Shown here: positions 1-30,172 of the stretch, piece by piece
How positions within the stretch are numbered: the first letter of the stretch is position 1
How the letters are laid out: each line of letters opens with the position of its first letter
Origin: a virus
Virus record (IMG/VR): IMGVR_UViG_3300028392_000211
Coordinates: 1-31,251 of that record
Reading direction: 5' to 3' (one strand)
DNA length: 31,251 bases
Translations under genes and position numbers: made by a program
Notes under the pieces: generated by a model
What the model was told of the DNA's origin: nothing
Databases searched by the model: none
Seen by the model: the letters and a program-made list of their open reading frames with translations, nothing else

Positions 1-473
1 ACAACTGGCGCAGCTTTTACAGCAGGCTTAGCAGCCTTTTGTTTTGCAATCTGGCCTTTGATGTATTCGTGAGCATTGTAGACTTTACCGCCAAATACAC
101 CCTCAGCTGTTCCGCTTAGTGTGAAGTGAAGGTGGCAACCAAAACTGGCTGAACCGGTGTTACCTGCTTTACCGACTACGTCGCCTGACTTCACGACTGT
201 TCCAACCTTAAGTGGTGATGGTTCATTCATGTGGCAGTAACCGAAGTAGTGGCCGTTATCTGTTTGTAGTACTACGACATTGCCGAGTACCTTGCTTTGT
301 GCTAAAGGTCTGTTAAGTACGATTGTTCCATCATTTACAGCAAGCAAAGGCTCGCCAATAGCAAAACCGTTATAATCGGTTCCACGGTGACCAGGAGCTT
401 TGTGCCACTGGTCTACTGCGCCAAATAGTGATCCGAGTTTGACCTTCTTTACTGGGAAAATCCAGTTACCCAT
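1..473 (-). CDS. M23 (LytM-type) peptidase, likely endolysin; 3' end beyond window
   Basis: The frame is open from an ATG at 473 to the left edge, so the C-terminus is missing. The visible 157 residues hold a full zinc-peptidase core: HRGTD near residues 29-33, YCHMN (His81) and HLH (114-116), the pattern of M23 glycyl-glycine or DD-endopeptidases that cut peptidoglycan cross-bridges. No signal peptide is seen, which fits a holin-released endolysin. The segment after about residue 135 is Lys/Ala/Pro-rich and looks like a linker to a further domain, perhaps a cell-wall binding module. An AAAGGA ribosome-binding site lies just upstream. It is the last visible gene of the minus-strand lysis group. 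Confidence 0.88.
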   Translation of the reverse strand, partial: MGNWIFPVKKVKLGSLFGAVDQWHKAPGHRGTDYNGFAIGEPLLAVNDGTIVLNRPLAQSKVLGNVVVLQTDNGHYFGYCHMNEPSPLKVGTVVKSGDVVGKAGNTGSASFGCHLHFTLSGTAEGVFGGKVYNAHEYIKGQIAKQKAAKPAVKAAPV

Positions 474-521
474 AGTGGGATTCCTTTCGAAGGGTTGGAG
501 GGACACTTCTATTGTCGCTTA

Positions 522-683
522 TTAATCCCTATTTCGCAGTGGATACGTGGCTATCCAGATGGCTAGCGAGCCGATGATACACCAGCCAACAACGACTTTA
601 GCGGACCCTTCTAGGACTACCCAGGCCACAAACATGCCCAAAAGCGTCCATAATTGGCCTAGGAGGTCATTTAAGAACTTCAT
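522..683 (-). CDS. 53-aa membrane protein, holin-like
   Basis: This ORF begins at an ATG that overlaps the stop of the preceding ORF (ATGA), so it is probably translationally coupled; AAGGAAAG sits in front of it. The protein has two hydrophobic stretches (about residues 8-24 and 29-47) separated by a short turn with Glu and Lys, and ends in a basic tail (LRNRD). Size, topology and position directly upstream of the endolysin fit a second holin or an antiholin. No family signature is recognised, so the role rests on context. Confidence 0.6.
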   Translation of the reverse strand: MKFLNDLLGQLWTLLGMFVAWVVLEGSAKVVVGWCIIGSLAIWIATYPLRNRD

Positions 684-919
684 TTAACTTTCCTTCGATT
701 AGAGCCAGATGAGCCCGAAGAGGCGCTTCCAGCGGCATTAGCTGCGGCACTAGCAGCACTTTGAGCTGCCATTAAACCGGCTTGAGTAGCTACTTGTGTA
801 ACAATGATAGCGGAGATAACGACCTTTTGGGCCTTCTTACGGACAGCAGGCGGCAAATCTGCACCGATGTTATTCAAAGCATTGAAAGCATCGGACAATC
901 CTTGAAATGCTGCCCCCAA
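680..919 (-). CDS. 79-aa membrane ORF; probably the -1 frameshift extension of the PA14 protein
   Basis: One hydrophobic helix (VVISAIIVTQVATQAG, about residues 33-48) follows a basic turn (VRKKAQK), then an Ala/Ser-rich stretch and a basic end. That would suit a membrane anchor or a small holin-like protein. The only candidate start in the listed span is a TTG at 917-919 with no ribosome-binding site; the frame stays open up to 997 without ATG or GTG. It lies in the -1 frame relative to the upstream PA14 gene, and a TTTAAAA heptamer sits exactly at that junction. My preferred reading is a 97-residue C-terminal extension made by frameshifting; an independent TTG-started gene is the alternative. 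Confidence 0.6.
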   Translation of the reverse strand: MGAAFQGLSDAFNALNNIGADLPPAVRKKAQKVVISAIIVTQVATQAGLMAAQSAASAAANAAGSASSGSSGSNRRKVK

Positions 920-979
920 CAGTGGAATTGACGCAACTGGATTATTGTTGGAAAAGTCCTTTGGGGGTATTATTTTAAA
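913..979 (-). promoter_or_regulatory. Candidate programmed -1 frameshift signal
   Basis: On the minus strand the PA14 gene ends TAT TTA AAA TAA. The heptamer T TTA AAA (plus positions 973-979) fits the X XXY YYZ slippery rule and is followed at once by the stop. After a 5-nt spacer (TAATA), CCCCCAA (plus 961-967) can pair with TTGGGGG (plus 913-919), a perfect 7-bp GC-rich stem enclosing 41 nt. Slipping back one base continues straight into the open frame of the 79-aa membrane ORF, reading I-I-P-P-K-D-F. Geometry and frame are seen directly; frameshifting itself is inferred. Confidence 0.6.
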
Positions 980-2433
980 TATAGAACGTATTGTTGTCTA
1001 GAAAGATACGCACCATCTGCGTAGTACTTTGACGTGCCTTTCTTTGGTCGTCTCTTATCAGCGGCAGTTGGTTTAGGAATGTTTGCCAAGTCAATTTTTG
1101 CCTGAGCAATTTGTGTTTCCAAACTATCTACTTGCTGTGCAGCAGAGTCAATAGCATTGAATGTGCTACTGTATTGAGCTTTTAGGTCACGAAGGTTAGC
1201 GTCGGCTACTGCTTTAGTGTCGCTACTGGTTTGCCAGTTATTTTCGGCGTCAGCCATAATATTTTCTAAAACGCCCATTGTCGTTCGTTTATTTGCTAAC
1301 TCATTTCCTAAATACCCATAGGTAATCTGTTTACCGTCATAATCGTCACAAGCATTTTGGTAAACCACGTTTGCCTGTTCTTCAGCAGCTACTGCTTGAA
1401 CATAAAGAGCAGTCTTGGTGTTTAGTATTGCAAGTAGTGCTGGGTCTTTTACCAAAGTTGGCACAGCGTCTTGTGTAAAGAAAGCTGCCGGAGCTACTGC
1501 GTAAGAGTTACTACCTAGAGGCTTGTAGTTAAGAGTAGAACAAGCGCCACCAGTCCATTCGTAGAACCACACGTCAATAGCATAAGATTTTCCGCCAGTA
1601 AATGAGAACAAACCAGTTGAGTTTGCTCCACAGCCCTTTAGAGACCAGTCATTAATTACAACTTGACCGTTGATGACCATGTAAAAACCATCATCAGCAG
1701 GGGCTTGGAAATATACTTTAGTAGTGGTTGGATAAGTGATATAACCGTGGTAGTGAAGCATGATGTAATCAGACCCACAACCAAGAATGTCACCGCCACC
1801 CCAGTTAGCGTCAATGTTGTTTACAGTAACTGTCTTACATTTGGTGTAAGCAGTGTCTGACTTTTGTGGAGGGTTTCCATAACGACCAACACCTGTATAA
1901 ACATCGACTTTCAAACCAGGAGTGCTACCTGTACCACCGGCATTAATTAACTTTGTATTGTAGTCATTTTGAGCTTGGTTCATAGCAGATTGAGCATTGT
2001 CAGCATTCTGCTGCGCTGTTACATAATTATTGTAAGTAGAATCTACAACATCAGCAGCAGCGTTTACTGCATCTATTGCTCTACCTACAGCCGCTTCTGC
2101 AGCCTGTTCGTCAGCGTAAGCCGCGTCATAATTAGCTCTTTTATCAGCATAGTCAGCAGCAGCAATATCTAAAGCGTCTTTGGCTTCAGTAGCGGCAGTC
2201 TGAGCTTCGTTAATCTGATTGGCCTGGTCATTAGATGAGTTGGTCCAACTGTCTAGGTTAGCCTGTGCCTGACTTAGTTGATTTTGAAGGTCTTGAATCC
2301 TAGCTTGAGCATCAGCGACTTTTTGATTGTAGTCAGTAGTGCTGTCAGCCATTGCCGGACTAGACATACCAAATATAAGAAATAGCGATGTAGCCGCTAC
2401 AAATAAGGTAGCAAATTTACGCATTTTTTTCAT
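970..2433 (-). CDS. Secreted coiled-coil protein with PA14-like domain
   Basis: The start is placed at 2433 because AAAGGA lies eight bases upstream; the frame extends to 2460 without a better site. The 487-residue product opens with a Sec signal peptide (basic N-terminus, hydrophobic core, likely cleavage after SSPAMA near residue 29). Residues about 30-165 are an Ala/Gln-rich coiled coil. About 175-315 resemble a PA14/GLEYA beta-sandwich, with APADDGFYMVINGQ as the clearest segment. A second coiled coil (about 330-455) and a basic tail follow. PA14 domains often bind carbohydrate. Lying between two holin-like genes, it may act outside the membrane at lysis or be displayed on the cell. The 3' end carries a -1 slip site into the next ORF. 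Confidence 0.7.
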   Translation of the reverse strand: MKKMRKFATLFVAATSLFLIFGMSSPAMADSTTDYNQKVADAQARIQDLQNQLSQAQANLDSWTNSSNDQANQINEAQTAATEAKDALDIAAADYADKRANYDAAYADEQAAEAAVGRAIDAVNAAADVVDSTYNNYVTAQQNADNAQSAMNQAQNDYNTKLINAGGTGSTPGLKVDVYTGVGRYGNPPQKSDTAYTKCKTVTVNNIDANWGGGDILGCGSDYIMLHYHGYITYPTTTKVYFQAPADDGFYMVINGQVVINDWSLKGCGANSTGLFSFTGGKSYAIDVWFYEWTGGACSTLNYKPLGSNSYAVAPAAFFTQDAVPTLVKDPALLAILNTKTALYVQAVAAEEQANVVYQNACDDYDGKQITYGYLGNELANKRTTMGVLENIMADAENNWQTSSDTKAVADANLRDLKAQYSSTFNAIDSAAQQVDSLETQIAQAKIDLANIPKPTAADKRRPKKGTSKYYADGAYLSRQQYVLYLK

Positions 2434-2713
2434 TAGTTTTTTCCTTTTCATTTTCGACATTTTTTAAAGACACGGTTTGCTGGAAGGCAGCATTAATTTC
2501 ATTAAGGGTTAGCTTTCCATCTTCTAAGAAAGCCAAAGCAAGCAGTTCAACTACTTTAGCTACAGCCATTACACCACCCATTACAGCGCTAAACCAGATA
2601 GGAATTTGGATACCGCTCATAGAACCCGCGACTGTACCAGCACCGATTACGCCCAGTGCCGAAGCGACAAATGTTGCAAGTACGCGCAACATTACATTGC
2701 CAAAAAGTTTCAT
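2417..2713 (-). CDS. Phage holin, r1t-like
   Basis: This 98-residue protein has two hydrophobic segments (about residues 8-30 and 37-62), then FLEDGKLTLNEINAAF and a charged tail rich in Glu and Lys. The pattern of two helices, a DGKLT/S-x-x-EIN motif and a charged C-terminus is that of r1t-type holins of phages of Gram-positive hosts. It would form membrane lesions that release the endolysin and start lysis. It is the first gene of the minus-strand lysis group and overlaps the PA14 gene by 17 nt. No clear Shine-Dalgarno is seen before its ATG. Confidence 0.8.
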   Translation of the reverse strand: MKLFGNVMLRVLATFVASALGVIGAGTVAGSMSGIQIPIWFSAVMGGVMAVAKVVELLALAFLEDGKLTLNEINAAFQQTVSLKNVENEKEKTNEKNA

Positions 2714-2959: not shown

Positions 2960-3484
2960 ATGAAAAAGTACGTAATCATAGCCAGCGTAATTTTAACTCT
3001 CGCTGGTTGTTCTGCATCTGCAGCAACTGCTGTAAGTACAGGCACACACCAAACACAAACACAGGTTTCACACATCTCGTTTAACCAGGCTTTAAAAACA
3101 GGAGCCAACACTAAAAACATGAAGCATGTTGTGAAGTACCTAATCTCACGCGTAGGAAGAACCTCCTATGTATTTTCAGGAGCAACCCCATATGGTTGGG
3201 ATTGTTCTGGAATGGTCCGTTGGACCTATAAACAATTTGGTATCACGCTCCCGCACTCCGCTAATAAGCAGGGGCACCTGGGAGCCCGTGTAACCACTCC
3301 AAAGCTAGGCGACATAGTCGTATTTGCTTATGAGGGTCGTACGGATTTCTACCATGCCGCCATTTATATTGGCAAAGGCAAAATAATCAACGCGAACTAT
3401 GGCTCAGGTACCACTATCATCCAGCCATTATCGGATTACAAAGGCAGCCAAATTCGGTTTATCCGAGTGCTACCTACGCTATAA
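2960..3484 (+). CDS. NlpC/P60 cell-wall peptidase, predicted lipoprotein
   Basis: The 174-residue protein starts with a lipoprotein signal (basic start, hydrophobic core, lipobox LAGC with Cys17), so it should be exported and anchored to the outer face of the membrane. An NlpC/P60 domain fills residues about 55-172: catalytic Cys82 in WDCSG, His132 in FYHAAIYIG, and a polar residue in the KIINANY segment. Such enzymes cut gamma-D-Glu-diaminopimelate links in peptidoglycan. A lipid-anchored hydrolase transcribed away from the lysis genes is unlikely to be the main endolysin; it could remodel the wall or alter the surface during infection. AAAGGTAAGG precedes the ATG. Confidence 0.88.
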   Translation: MKKYVIIASVILTLAGCSASAATAVSTGTHQTQTQVSHISFNQALKTGANTKNMKHVVKYLISRVGRTSYVFSGATPYGWDCSGMVRWTYKQFGITLPHSANKQGHLGARVTTPKLGDIVVFAYEGRTDFYHAAIYIGKGKIINANYGSGTTIIQPLSDYKGSQIRFIRVLPTL

Positions 3485-3493: not shown

Positions 3494-3567
3494 CGCCTCA
3501 ATAGCTCAGTTGGTAGAGCGCAATACTTGTAATATTGATGTCGCGGGTTCGATTCCTGCTTGAGGCT
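3494..3567 (+). tRNA. tRNA-Thr(TGT)
   Basis: Full cloverleaf by eye: acceptor GCCTCAA/TTGAGGC, D-arm GCTCAGTTGGTAGAGC, anticodon stem CAATA/TATTG closing the loop CTTGTAA (anticodon TGT), and T-arm GCGGG TTCGATT CCTGC. CCA is not encoded. It reads ACA codons, which appear frequent in the plus-strand genes, so it may support late or high-level translation. Confidence 0.95.
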
Positions 3568-3804: not shown

Positions 3805-3895
3805 CTATACAGGTACGCCAATTGGGTACCGCAAATAATACTGTGCTACGGGCAGTAAAAGTACCAAGGCACAGTTGTCGTCTAAAGGAGACAAT

Positions 3896-4453
3896 ATGAC
3901 AAAAACATTAAACGGCCAGTTCCCAGACCCATGGGACAACCACAAAAACCCATATGATCCATATGGTAAGGCAATTCCAAGCCCTCATTCGCCAGAGGAC
4001 ATTTACGAAAAATGGAAAAAGCCTATTGTTATGACTAAGTCAATTACCATTAATGATGTATTTCCGTCATTAGACCGTTGGGCTATTGGCTATTCGTCAA
4101 TACTAGAACAACTTAAGGAAATGTCCGCTGTAAAGGCGAGCTACCCTCCTTATGACATTATTGACCAAAAAAATGACTCCACCCTCATCAACGTCGCTGT
4201 GGCCGGGTTTACTAAAAAGGACCTTACAATCACAGTCGAAGAAAGGACGTTGAAAATTGAAGGAACAAAAGAAAAAGAAACAGAAGGAACGCTCGTTCAC
4301 AACGGCATTGCTGGACGCGATTTTAAACTCACCTTTGCCTTGGCTGAGTTTTATGAGGTAGAGTCAGCAAACATTAAAGACGGTATCCTATCGGTCAAAC
4401 TCATCAAGAATATCCCTGATGAAAAGAAGCCAAAGGTTATTGACATCAAGTAG
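3896..4453 (+). CDS. Hsp20/alpha-crystallin small heat-shock protein
   Basis: The start at 3896 follows a strong AAAGGAG. The 185-residue protein has a long Pro-rich N-terminal arm and an alpha-crystallin domain from about residue 80: YPPYDI, the VAVAGFTKKDL segment, the LKIEGTKEK strand, HNGIAGRDF, and a final GILSVKLIKNIP that replaces the usual IxI anchor. It is an ATP-independent holdase that keeps unfolded proteins soluble. Small heat-shock proteins are known in cyanophages, where they are thought to help virion assembly under stress; in an actinophage they are less usual. An 11-bp hairpin follows the stop. Confidence 0.9.
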   Translation: MTKTLNGQFPDPWDNHKNPYDPYGKAIPSPHSPEDIYEKWKKPIVMTKSITINDVFPSLDRWAIGYSSILEQLKEMSAVKASYPPYDIIDQKNDSTLINVAVAGFTKKDLTITVEERTLKIEGTKEKETEGTLVHNGIAGRDFKLTFALAEFYEVESANIKDGILSVKLIKNIPDEKKPKVIDIK

Positions 4454-4511: not shown

Positions 4512-4583
4512 TGACCTTTAGCTCAATGGCAGAGCAGAGAGCTGTTAACTCTAAGGTTCCTGGTTCGAGTCCAGGAAGGTCAG
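4512..4583 (+). tRNA. tRNA-Asn(GTT)
   Basis: Acceptor TGACCTT/AAGGTCA, D-arm GCTCAATGGCAGAGC, anticodon loop CTGTTAA (anticodon GTT), and T-arm CCTGG TTCGAGT CCAGG. The first pair of the anticodon stem is a G-A mismatch; the other four pair. CCA is not encoded. The 3' end runs directly into the RNA-like segment that follows. Confidence 0.93.
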
Positions 4584-12320: not shown

Positions 12321-12698
12321 TTGTCTAACCCGTTTTTTAACCCATCGTCAGAGTCTGACCCTTGGGAATATAACGCTAAATGCGGAGCCGGAACATACGA
12401 TTCGGAAAATAAAAAGTTTTCGTTCGTGTACGACCCTGATCTTTGGTTTCCTCCGCGCGATAAAAAACTATATAAACCAATAGCTGATAAAGCTAAATCA
12501 ATTTGCTTTGGCCGTGACGGCAAGGGCGAATGCCCAGTTAGACTTCAATGTTTAATGGCCGCAGATAAGAATGAAGAAGTGCACGGTATCTGGGGCGGAA
12601 TGAGTCACCGTGAAAGAAATGCCTTAAAACGTAAGGCAGAACGACTAGGAACTACCTTAGAAGAACTTGCTAAAAAAGCTAGTAGACAATCGCAATAA
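12321..12698 (+). CDS. WhiB-family transcription factor
   Basis: A TTG at 12321 with GGAG five bases upstream is chosen; an in-frame ATG at 12270 has no ribosome-binding site and lies in the previous gene. In the 125-residue product the cluster ligands are Cys21, Cys62, Cys71 and Cys77, followed by the signature GIWGG (89-93) and a basic helix SHRERNALKRKAER. WhiB proteins hold a [4Fe-4S] cluster and act on the sigma factor region 4. The middle spacing is CX8C rather than the usual CX2C, so the cluster loop is six residues longer. Actinophage WhiB proteins are known to reprogram host transcription and block superinfection. Confidence 0.85.
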   Translation: MSNPFFNPSSESDPWEYNAKCGAGTYDSENKKFSFVYDPDLWFPPRDKKLYKPIADKAKSICFGRDGKGECPVRLQCLMAADKNEEVHGIWGGMSHRERNALKRKAERLGTTLEELAKKASRQSQ

Positions 12699-22076: not shown

Positions 22077-22538
22077 GTGGCAATTGTATTGTTCATGGAT
22101 GGCGTATTGCGGTCATCCAGTAGTAAGGTCCCTATTTACGAGGGCGTTGCTCTATATAAATCCTTAAATGTAAATGGCACTGTTGTACTTGCCTGTGATG
22201 ACCAAGAAGAAGCTCAGCGTTGGTGTAAGGAGCATAAACTTACTGACGTGGATGGCTTTATTTCTAATAAAACTGTTGGTGAATATGAGGATAAAGACTT
22301 TCTTAAAATCCAGCACCAACAGGCTTCGGGGCCCTTGTTTATGGTAATCCTGGCTGATGTTGAATTGGCTATAAAGTGCCTACAAAATGGCATTAAAACC
22401 CTACTATGGCTACACCCTATATATCAAAGTGCTAAGTTTAGACCAGATGGCAGAGTGGGGCGTAAAAGTTGGGACGACCTTGTAGGTGAACTTGACAGAC
22501 AAATAGATATGATGGCAGAGGATAACCGCATTGAGTAA
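22077..22538 (+). CDS. Possible HAD-like protein
   Basis: 153 residues from GTG after AAGGA. IVLFMDGVLRSS recalls the first motif of HAD hydrolases (DxDGVL) but has Met in place of the first Asp, so catalysis is doubtful. A Rossmann-like pattern follows (VVLACDDQEEAQ, MVILADVELAIKC, KTLLWLHPIY). It overlaps the next gene by 8 nt. A degenerate phosphatase or a binding protein is possible. Confidence 0.5.
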   Translation: MAIVLFMDGVLRSSSSKVPIYEGVALYKSLNVNGTVVLACDDQEEAQRWCKEHKLTDVDGFISNKTVGEYEDKDFLKIQHQQASGPLFMVILADVELAIKCLQNGIKTLLWLHPIYQSAKFRPDGRVGRKSWDDLVGELDRQIDMMAEDNRIE

Positions 22539-23979
22539 GATTATATTTTTAGGCTCCGAAGTCCCTAGTAATAAAACTATTCTAGGACAAATGAACGCAA
22601 AAAGCGTTGGCTTTAGTTACTGGGGTGCTGTTAAGCGTGGACTACCTACCACAAAGAAATATTTATTAAATGAGCGTTTCCCAGATGATGTAGACATCTA
22701 TGTCTTCCCAGGCATCCCAGCCGCGACAGCTCTGACTGAGGCCGAGATGGAGGAGTTTTCTGCCGATTACGAGGAGTTTATTTCGGATAATCTGAATAGA
22801 ATTACTCTTTTTATTGAAATACAGCACCCTTCTCTTTCTGCCGAAGCAGTTAATCAGCAGCGCCTCTCCGCATGGAACGAGGTAGACGAGGCTAAGTTTG
22901 GTGTAGTATTTACCGCTGGTGACTTGGAAGACCTTGCTGTAAGGTATTTAAATGTTTTCTTATCAGGTGAAATGGCTGAAGTAATGGCTCCTGTGTGTAG
23001 GAAGCTCTCGGCTCAACACGGTACTCGCTTTCACGTAATGGGTATGGCTAAGCCAGACCTCTTGCGTAATTCTCCTTACGCTACTACTAGCACTCTCTCG
23101 TGGCTCTCACCTATGATGAGAGGTGAAACTATCGTATGGTTTGCTAATCAGTTACACCGCTACCCTAAGCGTATGAAAGACCAGGCCCGCTCTCGCTACA
23201 AGGTTTCCTATGAAGAAGCAGGGCTAGACTTTGACAAGATACTAGCAGATGACGCTGTTGAGGTATCAAAACTGGCTGTGTGGTCTTATCAACAACTAGA
23301 AAAGTGGATGGAAAACCCTTCACATATATCAGATACATCTATGGAAAATCAACCCAACAATTTCTCTCAAACTACCCCCGCTAATGCTGATATATCAGCA
23401 TCGGAATCAAACAAACTTATTACACGAAATCCTGCCGAAATGAGGGTTCTCCCTGTGCTTGGGGTAGAGGTTTCTAGGGTCATTGAGCAAGATGAAACTG
23501 GGCGTGATGTGATTAAAGATGTGCCTGTGCTACGGTCTAACAGCACTAGCCTACGTCAGTGTAACTCTTGTTTTGTCAAGGACAACTGCCCTGCGTTTAA
23601 GGTGGATAACCCTTGTGCTTTCTCTCTCCCAGTTGAGGTAAAAACCAAAGACCAACTAAAGGGGTTAATCAACTCTCTCCTTGAAATACAAGGGCAACGA
23701 GTGGCATTTGCTAAGTTCACAGAGGACTTAAATGGTGGATACCCTGACCCAAATACGGGCTTAGAAATGGACCGTTTTTTTAAAATGTTAAAGGCAATTA
23801 AGGAATTAGATGAGAGTAAAGAAATGATGAAAGTTACGTTTGAGCGTAACGGCTCAGCAGGAGTTCTCTCTAGTTTGTTTGGTGACAGGGCTCAAAAGTT
23901 AAATGAATTGCCTAATAATGGCTACAACGAGGAACAGACTAACGAGATAATTAAGAAGATAAATCCCGACAGTATATAG
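22531..23979 (+). CDS. Large hypothetical protein with Cys cluster
   Basis: From TTG after GAGGA, overlapping the previous stop. 482 residues. The N-terminal 240 (FLGSEVPSN, SYWGAVKRGLP, HVMGMAKPDLL, STLSWLSPMMRGE) hint at a TIM-barrel protein of the kind sometimes labelled tRNA-ribosyltransferase-like in phages; this is weak. A low-complexity linker (about 265-295), a four-Cys cluster near 347-365 and a helical C-terminus follow. TCTCTC hexamers, nearly absent upstream, become frequent in this gene. It ends the plus-strand operon. Confidence 0.45.
   Translation: MSKIIFLGSEVPSNKTILGQMNAKSVGFSYWGAVKRGLPTTKKYLLNERFPDDVDIYVFPGIPAATALTEAEMEEFSADYEEFISDNLNRITLFIEIQHPSLSAEAVNQQRLSAWNEVDEAKFGVVFTAGDLEDLAVRYLNVFLSGEMAEVMAPVCRKLSAQHGTRFHVMGMAKPDLLRNSPYATTSTLSWLSPMMRGETIVWFANQLHRYPKRMKDQARSRYKVSYEEAGLDFDKILADDAVEVSKLAVWSYQQLEKWMENPSHISDTSMENQPNNFSQTTPANADISASESNKLITRNPAEMRVLPVLGVEVSRVIEQDETGRDVIKDVPVLRSNSTSLRQCNSCFVKDNCPAFKVDNPCAFSLPVEVKTKDQLKGLINSLLEIQGQRVAFAKFTEDLNGGYPDPNTGLEMDRFFKMLKAIKELDESKEMMKVTFERNGSAGVLSSLFGDRAQKLNELPNNGYNEEQTNEIIKKINPDSI
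23385..23400 (+). repeat. 16-bp perfect palindrome within the 22531 gene
   Basis: TGCTGATATATCAGCA. Related TGATATAT motifs lie near 23322 (as CACATATATCA) and 23981 (TGATATATGTG). It could be a binding site, or a chance effect of the low-complexity linker coding sequence. Confidence 0.3.
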
Positions 23980-24161: not shown

Positions 24162-24629
24162 TTATTTAATCAGATACAGTATGACCACAAAGCCTACATA
24201 GGCTACTGGGCTTAGTTTCAGAACATCAAAGCCTAGATACTTCAACACCAGTATCGCTAGGAATAGCCCTACTAATAGAACTATCGGCAAGAACGCAAAG
24301 CCCAGACCGATATTGTGCCAGCCGATAATCATAGATAAGGCTATGAATAACTTGACATCACCCATACCTATAAAGCCTCGCTGATTAACCAGCGTGCCTA
24401 CAAGTAAAGTAACTATGGCTATCAGCATTACCATACCGAACCTGAACCAAAGACCTTGCCAAATTGCCAACCCAAGCATAGACACAAGGTTAAGCAGGAT
24501 TAAAGGTAGCGTAATCTTATTAGGAACTCGGCTCTGGGTGATGTCAGTGGCTACGACAGGGATAGCAGAGGCTATCGCATAGGCAATCGGTAAAAGGCTT
24601 ATTAGTAAATAAATGTTGTATTCGGTCAT
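24162..24629 (-). CDS. A24-type prepilin peptidase (stand-alone, TadV/CpaA-like)
   Basis: 155 residues, nearly all hydrophobic, with about six membrane helices. The two catalytic aspartates of the aspartyl prepilin peptidases are there: Asp29 in TDITQSRVPN and Asp91 in the GxGD motif GMGDVKLF. The N-terminal methylase domain of PilD/PulO is lacking, as in TadV/CpaA. The enzyme cuts the leader peptide of type IV pilins or related proteins. No pilin or pilus gene is visible here, so the phage may process a host or phage substrate elsewhere. It is the last gene of the AAA+/VWA operon and starts right after the previous stop. Confidence 0.85.
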   Translation of the reverse strand: MTEYNIYLLISLLPIAYAIASAIPVVATDITQSRVPNKITLPLILLNLVSMLGLAIWQGLWFRFGMVMLIAIVTLLVGTLVNQRGFIGMGDVKLFIALSMIIGWHNIGLGFAFLPIVLLVGLFLAILVLKYLGFDVLKLSPVAYVGFVVILYLIK

Positions 24630-26606: not shown

Positions 26607-28703
26607 CTAGTGCTTAATGCTACTTTTTGTGTGGTGTTTTACAACATCTTTAGCAACTTTTACCAACTCACTAGGGGATTGGATAGTCCTAAACGAGTTA
26701 GCGTTGTGGCTGTATTGCTCAATGCTCTTAGGGTCAGACATAATTCGTTGAGCATATTCTTTATCGCCTAACCATACAACGCTTACATAACAGCCTTGTT
26801 TAATTAGTTCAGCGATTTTATTGTCAGCGAGGGTAGAGCCTGACCAAGCACCGTCAGTTAGAATAAATACTAATTTAGTTTTAGCAGTTGTATTATCCAT
26901 AATTCGTGCTGTTTCGCTTAGGCTGTGATTAGGATTAGTTCCGCCACCCGCCTCAACGATACGAACCACACTAGCACTGGCAACCGTATCTCTGTCGTAA
27001 AGTTCTTTAGCACCGTCATTAAAGACCGATACAGACACCTTACCGTTAATTCGTTCTATGGCACGCTTGATTACCCAAGCAGACCTACAAGCCGAACCGA
27101 TTTCCCTAGACATAGAGCCAGACCTGTCAATCAAGATACTAGCCTCAATGTCGTAATCGTCATTACCCTCTTGCCAACGGTCAAACAGCGTATCTATCTT
27201 GTTAATATCTGCGTTCATAGCACGCTTAACATTTAACTTGCCAGTTGGCTTTTCCCTATTCCAAGCAGGGTCACTTTCAATTCGTAGCAGTTCTAGTTCT
27301 TGGGCGAACAAGCGACTAGCGGTAACCTCTGACATCTCTGGGGTATAGTTGCCAGCCCTACTTTTATCTAAAATAGACTTGCTAGAACGGTCTTTGATAA
27401 TTGCCTTGAGAGTGTCATTAACCTTACGCTGTAAAGACTTATCAGCCTTAGCACGATTAACGACCTCTTGTAATTGCTCAATTACATTTTCCGATTTAAT
27501 ATTAAAATCAGCAGTATCAGGGTCAATCTCACCAGTTTCACTAAAGCCCTCTGTGCCAGCACTCAAGCCCTTATCAAACTCGTCACCTAACTTATCAGAC
27601 TTATCAGGGTCATTACTTACTAGCCCCTCTTGGTCTTTCTCGCTAGTTGGTCTACCATTACGCATAGGGTCACGATATACACAACCGTTAGGCGTGTCTT
27701 TAATCGGTCTTGGATTACCCTGTGCGTCTTTTGGTAATAGGGCTATTAGGGCTGTGATTAGTTCTTTGGCTCGGTCATACTGGCGAGGGAATACTAAGGT
27801 GCGATACTCACTCGTAATGTCATAGATAGCCTTAGCCTTATCTGCCCCATACTTGTCCGAGAACATCTTGGCAGACAATCTACGCAATTCTATTGAAAAA
27901 TACTTACGACCAGCGAGCAGGATAAACTGTTCGCCCAAGTTATCCACCTTGTTCTCAATGAGGTAATCACCTAATAGGGCTATCATAAACGGTCTAACGC
28001 TAGGATATTTTAGCGTTAGGTAATGTTCGGCTCGGCAATCCTCTAGGATATTGAAAGCAACTTGGCGAGCAGGGTTTACAAGTTCCTCTCGTTCCCAACT
28101 ACGAGTGTATTGCTCGGTTTCCATAGTTTCCCAGTTCACAACTCGTTCACCGACCTCGCTTTTAATAAGTATGTGCTTTTCTGTTAGCCACTTACCGAGA
28201 GCAGTTCCCACTCTAGGTGTGAATAGCAGGTGACCGAGTTCGTGATAATTAAGGCCCTGTAAAGACAATATTGTATTTTGGTCAAGGTCTTTAATTAGTG
28301 TTCCACTAAATACAATGTCTTTACCGTCATTGTAAGCAGGGGCTACCTTATCCTCTGTGACCGATACGATAACATCTAGCCCTGTCAAAATCCTATCGGC
28401 ACGCTGATAAACTGAAACAACGCTATCAAGCGTGTTGTTACGAACTTGGAATACTGTGCCAGCGACAGACTTTTCGTTTTCAATATAGATATCGTAAGCC
28501 TCTGATAAGGCTTGGCGATACTCATACTGTTCTTGAGATATCTGTTCTTTGGTCTTGCCAGTTTCTTTAACAAGTTTTTCTAACTCAGCATTATCCATAT
28601 AATAGGCATTATTATCTACACCTTGTTCTGCCAGCCAATCCCAGTAGCCCTTGCCGATTGAAGTGCTTTCTATGTTGTGTCTTATTACTCTAGGCTTAGG
28701 CAT
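26607..28703 (-). CDS. CobT-like VWA protein with HExxH metallopeptidase motif
   Basis: 698 residues. N-terminal half: HELGH at 154-158 (HExxH zinc site) with EDCRAEHY (Glu221-Glu226) as a plausible third ligand. A low-complexity, acidic linker (about 355-405) follows. The C-terminal VWA domain carries a complete MIDAS: DRSGS (526-530), Thr589 in GGGTN, Asp617 in LTDGAW. This pairing is typical of VWA partners of MoxR/CobS AAA+ ATPases, such as CobT and NorD. The ATG overlaps the stop of the ATPase gene (TAATG). The pair may remodel or process a protein target, with the HExxH centre perhaps adding proteolysis. Its phage role is unknown. Confidence 0.85.
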   Translation of the reverse strand: MPKPRVIRHNIESTSIGKGYWDWLAEQGVDNNAYYMDNAELEKLVKETGKTKEQISQEQYEYRQALSEAYDIYIENEKSVAGTVFQVRNNTLDSVVSVYQRADRILTGLDVIVSVTEDKVAPAYNDGKDIVFSGTLIKDLDQNTILSLQGLNYHELGHLLFTPRVGTALGKWLTEKHILIKSEVGERVVNWETMETEQYTRSWEREELVNPARQVAFNILEDCRAEHYLTLKYPSVRPFMIALLGDYLIENKVDNLGEQFILLAGRKYFSIELRRLSAKMFSDKYGADKAKAIYDITSEYRTLVFPRQYDRAKELITALIALLPKDAQGNPRPIKDTPNGCVYRDPMRNGRPTSEKDQEGLVSNDPDKSDKLGDEFDKGLSAGTEGFSETGEIDPDTADFNIKSENVIEQLQEVVNRAKADKSLQRKVNDTLKAIIKDRSSKSILDKSRAGNYTPEMSEVTASRLFAQELELLRIESDPAWNREKPTGKLNVKRAMNADINKIDTLFDRWQEGNDDYDIEASILIDRSGSMSREIGSACRSAWVIKRAIERINGKVSVSVFNDGAKELYDRDTVASASVVRIVEAGGGTNPNHSLSETARIMDNTTAKTKLVFILTDGAWSGSTLADNKIAELIKQGCYVSVVWLGDKEYAQRIMSDPKSIEQYSHNANSFRTIQSPSELVKVAKDVVKHHTKSSIKH

Positions 28704-30172
28704 TAGTTAGCCACCTCGTCAGCCTGTAACTCAACATTAGAGGTAATACCAAAACCACTAGCGATATGTGCCTTAGCGGTGTCAAAAACCAACTTGACAG
28801 CCTCTCGTTCATCATCAGCGAAACTATTTAGATAAGTTTCAATGGCGTAATCAAGATTTACGGTCTTGGTGTTCTTGACAAAAGCCTCAAGACCTCTGGT
28901 AGAGATAGGCGTGTCAATCTCGCCTCTTTCGTGCTGTTCTCGCAACTGGTTAGCGACCTCAATCAACATAGCGTTACCGATAAGTTTTTTCTCAATAGCC
29001 TTATCATACTCAAAATCCCACTTGTGAGCAAAACGGTCTTTCCACGCTTGGTTCATTGGGCGTGAGCCACGATAGTTAGGGTTGTGGTCACCGATTACAA
29101 CTAGGTCAGGGTGAGCCTTGATAACCTCGCCACCGTTCTCTAGCAACTGGATTTCTCGTCTATCGTCTAGCAAGCCAAACAAAACTGTTGTAATGCGTTC
29201 TGGCATAAAGTCAATCTCGTTGAGCAACAGCACGCCACCGTTTCTTACCAAGTCTGTTACAGGACCGTCTTGCCACTTGAATACACCAGCGTTCTCGGTA
29301 GGTGTCCACATACCGAACAGGTGACTAGGCTCTAGTCCAATGTTGCTAGAGATGTTGTAGTAGCGGTATTCTCTGGAACTAGCCCACGCCACGATACACA
29401 TAGTCTTACCAGAACCAGCGTGACCTCTGATAAGTAGGTTCTGGTTGTTCGCCTTGATAATGTCAAGCATTTCAAAATCGGTCTTGCCAGACTTGCCAAC
29501 ATTTTTTCTGTTGAGGTAACGGTTAGCCCAAGACTTATCTGGCACGCTTGCCATTTCGGTATGACCCTGTGAACGAGTAGGCATAGGGATTACATTTGTA
29601 ACAGGCTCGTTAAGTGTTGCCATAACTGGCACGAAAGCCATTTCTAGTTCTGGCTCTACCTCTGGCTCGGCAACGATAGGGCTAAGCACGATAGGGGAGT
29701 TCCTACGCTTATCCTGAACATAATTGTTTAGTTTATTGTCACCAGCGATAAGCATAGCGATAAGTTTATCCACCCACTCGGAGTGAGATATCTTATCCTC
29801 ACCTGCCCAGACAATCTCGCCAGATAGATTAGTCATACGACTAGATAGGGCTGTTACATTGTTAAAGTTGGCGTTGAATACATCTGTGCTGTTGATAGCA
29901 ACTGCGACAGGCTTATTTTCCATTTGTGTTTTAGGCAAGGTAGATAGGTTCGTGACCTTGTTCCAAGCCTGACCACGACCACGACCACCAGTAGAAAGAC
30001 GGTGAAACACTAGAACCTCTTTATCGGTAGGGATAAGTAGGGTCTGTTCTTTACCGTCAGTTGCGGGGGTTGATACCATAAGGGCGATACTCATAAGATT
30101 TGATACTTTCTGATTTAGTGAGGTCAGCGTTTCCGACCTCGTTAGAACGAGCCTATCACCGTAATAGGACAT
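28703..30172 (-). CDS. MoxR/CobS-like AAA+ ATPase
   Basis: 489 residues. The N-terminal 160 are an uncharacterised domain; 160-210 is a Pro/Glu-rich linker. The AAA+ module covers about 215-430: Walker A GHAGSGKT (250-257), Walker B GVLLLNEID (Glu319), sensor 1 GDHNPN (Asn364), and Arg380 in KDRF. The call to MoxR/CobS rests on the LLNEIDxMPE signature and the coupled VWA gene. These ATPases act as hexameric chaperones that insert metals or remodel complexes together with VWA partners. It is the first gene of the minus operon; no clear ribosome-binding site precedes its ATG, so the true start may be elsewhere. Confidence 0.85.
   Translation of the reverse strand: MSYYGDRLVLTRSETLTSLNQKVSNLMSIALMVSTPATDGKEQTLLIPTDKEVLVFHRLSTGGRGRGQAWNKVTNLSTLPKTQMENKPVAVAINSTDVFNANFNNVTALSSRMTNLSGEIVWAGEDKISHSEWVDKLIAMLIAGDNKLNNYVQDKRRNSPIVLSPIVAEPEVEPELEMAFVPVMATLNEPVTNVIPMPTRSQGHTEMASVPDKSWANRYLNRKNVGKSGKTDFEMLDIIKANNQNLLIRGHAGSGKTMCIVAWASSREYRYYNISSNIGLEPSHLFGMWTPTENAGVFKWQDGPVTDLVRNGGVLLLNEIDFMPERITTVLFGLLDDRREIQLLENGGEVIKAHPDLVVIGDHNPNYRGSRPMNQAWKDRFAHKWDFEYDKAIEKKLIGNAMLIEVANQLREQHERGEIDTPISTRGLEAFVKNTKTVNLDYAIETYLNSFADDEREAVKLVFDTAKAHIASGFGITSNVELQADEVAN

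Follow-up and report, generated by a model that had tools for sequence, protein, structure and literature searches.

A conserved −1 frameshift signal links a PA14-domain gene to a probable membrane-anchor extension in uncultured phages

Genes and features of the locus

The window analyzed here is the whole of a 31,251-nt stretch of viral DNA (positions 1 to 31,251 of IMG/VR record IMGVR_UViG_3300028392_000211). On its minus strand, a 496-aa CDS with a PA14 domain (970-2460) ends in TAA; codon by codon, the 3' end of this gene is GTT CTA TAT TTA AAA TAA. The heptamer T TTA AAA (973-979, minus strand) fits the slippery pattern X XXY YYZ and is in the 0-frame register, and the 0-frame stop (970-972, minus strand) is located immediately 3' of it. 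A 5-nt spacer, TAATA (968-972, minus strand), separates the heptamer from a downstream stem-loop (913-967, minus strand), the outer stem of which pairs CCCCCAA (961-967) with TTGGGGG (913-919); the inner stem is variable. The −1 frame forms an extension of 97 codons plus TGA (680-973, minus strand; TGA at 680-682) that reads IIPPKDF after the heptamer. It comprises a short linker, a conserved module with the pattern (N)IGADLPPAVRxKAQK, a weakly hydrophobic helix, and a Ser/Ala/Gly tail ending in RRK.

An earlier note, made from the sequence alone, had described this junction (heptamer, adjacent stop, stem, and open −1 frame), and all of its parts were verified on the minus strand. The note had also stated that the membrane ORF has no ATG and that its start-like TTG is buried in the stem. 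The second claim held: the listed 79-aa ORF (680-919) starts at a TTG within the 3' stem arm. The first held in part; there is no ATG near the beginning of the −1 ORF, and one is present deeper in it (Met69 of P0002). Taken alone, the window is weak evidence for a structured signal. Its RNA fold had a z-score of −1.24 (−1.55 relative to synonymous-codon shuffles), and its own stem is only mildly above chance.

Two other accounts of the junction were considered and rejected. An alternative genetic code was dismissed: the frames are offset by one base, and TGA serves as a stop that overlaps the next ATG. Readthrough of the TAA was also rejected, because the 0 frame past this codon is closed within a few codons.

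The genes around the junction occur in a conserved order: a 92-98-aa holin-like membrane protein, the PA14 gene, the extension, a 53-aa membrane protein, an M23 peptidase (missing or displaced in a few loci), and a further small membrane protein. In the window, the first cassette gene (2417-2713, minus strand) encodes a 98-aa membrane protein that is holin-like in size and hydropathy; its PHROG match to phrog_443 (holin) had an E-value of only 0.054, and phrog_26427, labelled nuclease, was matched at 4.5e-21. The ATG of the 53-aa gene (521-683, minus strand) overlaps the TGA of the extension (ATGA), and translation of this gene is therefore probably coupled to that of the extension. The M23 peptidase (3-473, minus strand; PF01551, E 2.8e-18; PHROG endolysin/peptidase families) has no signal peptide, is endolysin-like, and runs off the window. 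The region thus resembles a lysis cassette, but this is an inference; the holin assignment is weak, and there are no data on lysis function. Divergent from the cassette is a gene for an NlpC/P60 cell-wall peptidase with a lipoprotein-type signal (2960-3484, plus strand), which is also kept in loci L007 and L009.

The hosts are very likely Actinomycetota, as inferred from two features of the sequences. The window encodes a WhiB domain (12432-12626, plus strand), a marker of Actinomycetota and their phages that has been used for freshwater actinophages (PMC6802176); such domains were present in 17 of the 19 records examined, the window among them. Also, the DNA polymerase is nearest to those of Streptomyces phages (ca. 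40% identity).

Several other genes in the window were recorded. Two tRNA genes (3495-3567 and 4512-4583, plus strand) flank a gene for an Hsp20-type protein (3875-4453, plus strand); the Rfam scan that identified these tRNAs returned nothing else. A type IV prepilin peptidase (24162-24629, minus strand; Pfam A24, E 4.2e-11) might act on host pili. The ORF at 22531-23979 (plus strand) matched a PHROG queuine tRNA-ribosyltransferase family (E 1.7e-40). Finally, a gene pair (26607-30172, minus strand) encodes an AAA ATPase (PHROG “porphyrin biosynthesis”, CobS-like) and a large protein that has a VWA-like C-terminal part, judged CobT-like by inspection.

Conservation of the slip site, the stem, and both frames

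Relatives of the PA14 protein were found at 25 loci and relatives of the extension at 43; a search of IMG/VR with the 53-aa protein yielded at least 597 relatives, 80 of which were kept. After removal of duplicates, 40 non-redundant, readable junctions remained, all from uncultured phages and from many samples. Neither the extension nor the 53-aa protein had a match among cultured phages, and the sole such match to the PA14 protein was in Pelagibacter phage HTVC008M, over the PA14 part. In bacterial and archaeal genomes, 359 stretches fitting the pattern were encountered; none was related, and thus no prophage or host copy was found.

An in-register XXXAAAA heptamer was present at all 40 junctions (TTTAAAA in 16, CCCAAAA in 23, AAAAAAA in one). 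The X triplet alternates among TTT, CCC, and AAA as a whole unit, without a single intermediate. Elsewhere in the same genes, an in-frame XXXAAAA occurred at 1 of 17,411 codon positions, or at 1 of 1,025 positions at which the second codon specifies Lys. The codon that precedes XXA specifies nine different amino acids, yet its third base always matches X (T in all 16 cases before TTA and C in all 23 before CCA); elsewhere in these genes, T precedes TTA in 131 of 282 cases and C precedes CCA in 73 of 218. These counts derive from related sequences and are not independent events. With the slip region excluded, a tree of the 0-frame protein implied at least two to three switches of the X triplet.

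The position and type of the 0-frame stop are less strictly maintained. It lies directly after the heptamer in 34 loci and one codon farther in six, and it is TAA in 38 loci and TGA in two; the heptamer has therefore remained constant while the stop has drifted. In 15 loci a −1-frame stop is found immediately 5' of the heptamer, and 11 of these also have the 0-frame stop immediately 3' of it. In those 11, a change of frame is thus possible solely inside the 7-nt heptamer.

The RNA 3' of the slip site was evaluated by folding the sequences one by one with synonymous-codon controls instead of by a single consensus. All 37 sequences tested folded better than synonymous-codon shuffles of the −1 frame (z < −1 for each; mean −2.66). 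Over nucleotides +6 to +12 after the heptamer, the mean pairing probability in 40 sequences was 0.90, compared to 0.38 in the controls, and across the family the stem begins ca. 5 nt 3' of the heptamer, which falls in the 5-9 nt range expected of a stimulatory structure. Its sequence changes between subgroups with retention of pairing: CCCAACAGA/TCTGTTGGG in L059, CCCAGC/GCTGGG in L052, and CCGAA/TTCGG in L097. A column-based RNAalifold consensus of the 40 sequences recovered only four outer pairs, two of them with double changes, because the stem register shifts by one base and different subgroups have different inner stems. There were two exceptions: per-sequence folding of L043 gave no surplus pairing at the expected position, and the predicted stem of L045 starts farther downstream.

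Synonymous conservation was consistent with these results. Among codons at which the amino acid is kept, identity was 100% for the slip codons, 29/29 for CCC (as the codon for Pro) and 29/29 for AAG, and it was raised for TTG-GGG-GCA; the high values coincide with the slip site and both stem arms. CCC and GGG are otherwise rare in the genomes concerned. The AAG is extension codon 5 (window 961-957 region) and was kept in all 29 sequences with Lys there, the Lys codons being otherwise mixed. It creates the motif AAGGA, which may either belong to the inner stem or represent an SD-like sequence 3' of the slip site.

The −1-frame protein is conserved right from the slip site. Between the heptamer and the TTG, differences at codon positions 1, 2, and 3 were 0.27, 0.16, and 0.44, respectively, a pattern typical of a translated frame and found here upstream of the only start-like codon. 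Both reading frames are under purifying selection.

These data bear on three rival explanations of the junction. In the first, the extension would be a separate small membrane protein made by reinitiation, either downstream of the TAA or at the TTG that lies within the stem. The presence of TTG or GTG at extension codons 19-20 in 27 of 40 loci favors this idea, as does the overlap of adjacent genes, which is expected under translational coupling. However, the first candidate starts across the 40 loci vary in type (TTG, GTG, ATG) and place (codons 3 to 49), none is conserved, and only two loci have an SD-like sequence upstream. Further, codons 0-18, upstream of the TTG, are conserved as protein in the −1 frame; the heptamer, kept in every junction, would have no role; and more distant relatives join both parts in frame. 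Reinitiation is thus considered very unlikely.

The second rival is an error of assembly or sequencing, or a decayed frameshift mutation. Indels may indeed occur in metagenome contigs, but the same offset recurs across many samples, at all 40 non-redundant junctions; selection on both frames is purifying, and there are no intermediate heptamers. The comparison refutes this explanation and all but excludes it.

In the third, transcriptional slippage within the A run would yield a second mRNA with a fused frame. One locus (L097) does have an A7 run; all others have only A4, and the model needs neither the conserved X triplet nor the downstream stem. It is likewise nearly ruled out.

Comparison thus shows that two coding frames are joined by a conserved −1 frameshift signal and that the arrangement shares descent with in-frame fusions (see below). 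The earlier note had suggested checking whether homologues keep the heptamer, stop, and stem and whether the downstream ORF always lacks a start. These expectations were met: the heptamer was kept in 40/40 with the stop zero to one codon downstream, the stem persisted at the same spacing through changes of sequence (L043 and L045 excepted), and no start was conserved (2/40 SD-like). None of the observations that the note had regarded as refuting appeared, among them homologues with a good start for the short ORF and loss of the heptamer with both frames kept. Its frameshift interpretation is very strongly supported by the comparison, while slippage in cells and the efficiency thereof remain inferred.

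The PA14 protein, its extension, and the in-frame relatives

By inspection, the 496-aa protein has an N-terminal signal sequence that is probably cleaved after …SSPAMA, at about residue 38. The PA14 domain (residues 200-316; window 1513-1863, minus strand) matched Pfam PF07691 at 29.6 bits (cut-off 24). An AlphaFold2 model calculated from 29 natural sequences contains a helix (41-169), a PA14 beta-sandwich, a second helix (340-459), and a low-confidence tail; the mean pLDDT was 81.6, and the domain and helices were mostly above 85. The closest structures in the PDB were PA14 domains and adhesins of the PA14/Flo type. With 0.15 nm per residue, the two helices would be 18-19 nm long if straight, and we infer that both pack together as a single stalk, the tip of which bears the PA14 head.

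The sequence Ala-Asp-Asp-Gly-Phe (255-259) is invariant in the 29 sequences, and Asp256-Asp257-Gly aligns with the DDG of a solved PA14 domain. In PA14 lectins, the DcisD motif binds Ca2+ and sugar (PMC8092209). By alignment, Asp256-Asp257 occupies the position of this motif; the cis bond and sugar binding itself are inferred.

The candidate transmembrane helix in the extension, VVISAIIVTQVATQAGLMA (767-823, minus strand), has a mean Kyte-Doolittle value of 1.77 over 19 residues; in four members, the mean for the module helix ranged from 1.6 to 1.9 over the same length. This helix is short, contains two Gln residues, and was assessed by hydropathy alone. Together with the flexible tail ending in RRK that follows, it has the pattern expected of a type I membrane protein. 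The extension therefore likely anchors the protein in the membrane, although only hydropathy supports this and spanning has not been shown. In a model of the fusion protein from L062 (described below), confidence in the module was low, and the structure thus neither proves nor disproves the anchor.

At most loci that were reached via the 53-aa protein, the upstream gene consists of one ORF of ca. 275-943 codons; it encodes a signal sequence and, in frame, the same C-terminal module. One of these (L062, contig IMGVR_UViG_3300032224_001411) encodes a 621-aa in-frame fusion of PA14 and module. A profile of the module matched in-frame ORFs with E-values of 1e-34 (L062), 8e-33 (L089), and less strongly down to 1.6e-9 (L105); the ORFs matched at 1e-34 and 8e-33 span 631 and 780 codons. 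In a tree of the module plus the 53-aa protein, a branch recovered in 98% of bootstrap trees (support 99/93) separated all frameshift loci from the rest, and the in-frame pair L062 and L089 stood next to them. The simplest history that we infer is that the frameshift arose once from an in-frame ancestor and has long been kept since. Two limits apply. The order of the deep branches is unsure because the C-terminal module tree has few columns (118), and the direction from in-frame to frameshift is an inference because midpoint rooting was used.

The in-frame relatives exchange the outer domain (PA14, SUEL lectin, FN3) on a constant C-terminal module. Loci L068-L142 (e.g. L073:1394-2995, L090:549-2993, and L129:200-3004) represent a family that is very common in aquatic phage contigs; its members are secreted, often have Pro-rich or coiled-coil spacers, and retain the module ending in RRK, with the 53-aa partner in at least 597 contigs. 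Insertions are also found. In L070 (2419-3000) and L071 (242-820), a gene with amidase-like motifs (DCASGFSYASG, HDHIGLC) is located between the extension and the 53-aa protein; the part tested had no Pfam match. In L086 and L133, an extra small two-helix membrane protein (MKEKTMLVLAAGVMVAILFAIVGDY…) is situated between the module and the 53-aa gene.

Proposed role of the frameshift and comparison to known systems

The overall reading that we prefer is that the balance between released and membrane-anchored forms of a stalked lectin is set by −1 programmed frameshifting. We consider it likely (ca. 0.85), in the absence of protein or ribosome-profiling data. Most ribosomes would stop at the TAA and produce the 496-aa secreted protein, with a PA14 lectin-type head between two long helices; this form would be free once the signal peptide is cleaved. 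A minority would slip back one base on X XXA AAA, aided by the stem-loop 5 nt downstream. The slipped product would gain 97 residues, the helix of which would most likely lie in the cytoplasmic membrane and leave the short RRK tail on the inner side, and the 53-aa membrane protein, with its overlapping start, would be a probable partner of the anchored form. If termination gives the free form and slippage the anchored one, the efficiency of frameshifting would set the ratio of the two. Slippage in cells, sugar binding, and a late envelope role, most likely in lysis of an actinobacterial host, are all inferred.

The chief functional rival retains the same frameshift and differs in purpose. The lectin would act at the surface in superinfection exclusion or receptor masking, or it would attach debris or released virions to glycans, and its adjacency to lysis genes would merely reflect shared late expression. 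In its favor, relatives swap ectodomains (PA14, SUEL lectin, FN3) on a constant module in an adhesin-like manner, and PA14 lectins usually act in adhesion. Against it, the arrangement of the gene with those of the M23 peptidase and the small membrane proteins is conserved, and the protein has a signal sequence, unlike typical tail proteins. We judge this rival to be possible but less likely than not.

Among tailed phages, most known cases of frameshifting concern tail chaperones and capsid proteins. The tail assembly chaperones of the lambda G/GT type (Xu et al. 2004, cited in PMC10885494) resemble the PA14 locus in that −1 slippage on a heptamer near the 0-frame stop gives long and short products from one start. 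The PA14 locus is unrelated to them in sequence and place, however; it adds a probable anchor to a secreted protein, and it has relatives with an in-frame version. Identity as a tail chaperone was tried and rejected: the PHROG matches of P0001 and P0002 included no chaperone family, and the neighbors are membrane proteins and a peptidase. In T7 gene 10 (10A/10B) and other phage structural proteins, a −1 shift also lengthens the C terminus of a minority of the copies, but these proteins are part of the virion and have no signal peptide. In E. coli copA/CopA(Z) and alphavirus 6K/TF, frameshifting alters membrane status or a C-terminal membrane region. The shift in copA yields a shorter, soluble product, whereas that at the PA14 locus would yield a longer, probably anchored one, and the proteins are unrelated.

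Among functional analogs, the PA14/Flo-type lectins (MpPA14, Flo5, Epa; PMC8092209) share the PA14 fold and the Asp-Asp motif at the sugar site; to our knowledge, none is carried on a phage stalk with a frameshift-dependent anchor. LysZ of Corynebacterium phages is a 177-aa lysis protein with a single membrane helix and a proposed N-in/C-out topology; it is proposed to contact lipid-anchored envelope glycans outside the membrane (PMC13056207). It is comparable to the PA14 protein as an actinophage protein with one membrane helix, but it has no PA14 domain, no frameshift has been reported, and its topology is the reverse of that predicted for the PA14 protein (signal peptide, C-terminal anchor). 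A late envelope role akin to that of LysZ may be inferred for the latter. Rz-type spanins, to which there was a weak PHROG match (E 0.0013), likewise have a long coiled coil; they are membrane-anchored, as is probable for the extended PA14 protein, and their genes belong to lysis cassettes, which the PA14 region resembles. They differ in that the PA14 protein would be anchored at its C terminus and its host is very likely actinobacterial. Nor is the arrangement that of a two-component spanin, in which an i-spanin anchored at its N terminus pairs with an outer-membrane lipoprotein: the PA14 protein begins with a signal sequence and carries its candidate anchor at the opposite end, and no Rz1-like outer-membrane partner is found in the cassette.

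No description of a frameshifted PA14 phage protein was found in the literature searched. In the passages of the PRFect study (PMC10885494) that were consulted, the genes for which frameshifting is known or possible include lysins among others, and this gene is absent from them. The earlier note had known of no such arrangement in a phage lysis cassette, and the literature search likewise found none. Recoding by −1 slippage is a known mechanism; no account of it giving a secreted phage lectin a probable anchor, and having natural controls in the form of in-frame relatives, was found in that literature.

Gene callers miss or mis-start the 97-codon extension, as in the mechanical ORF list, which opens at the internal TTG; such mis-calling probably hides a conserved protein module that is present in hundreds of contigs. 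The last step of lysis in Actinobacteria is poorly understood. A bolder reading, which is no more than possible, is that frameshift efficiency sets the ratio of released to tethered wall-spanning lectin in abundant aquatic actinophages and that, in hosts with a single membrane, the tethered form and its 53-aa partner perform the last step of lysis in the manner of a spanin or of LysZ. On the preferred reading, the frameshift would control the addition of a probable membrane anchor to a secreted lectin across a large group of uncultured phages. More distant relatives, including the tree neighbors of the frameshift clade, encode both parts as one protein, and evolution has therefore supplied the constitutive control. 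The family would offer a direct way to test what an envelope lectin does when free and when tethered as infection of Actinobacteria ends.
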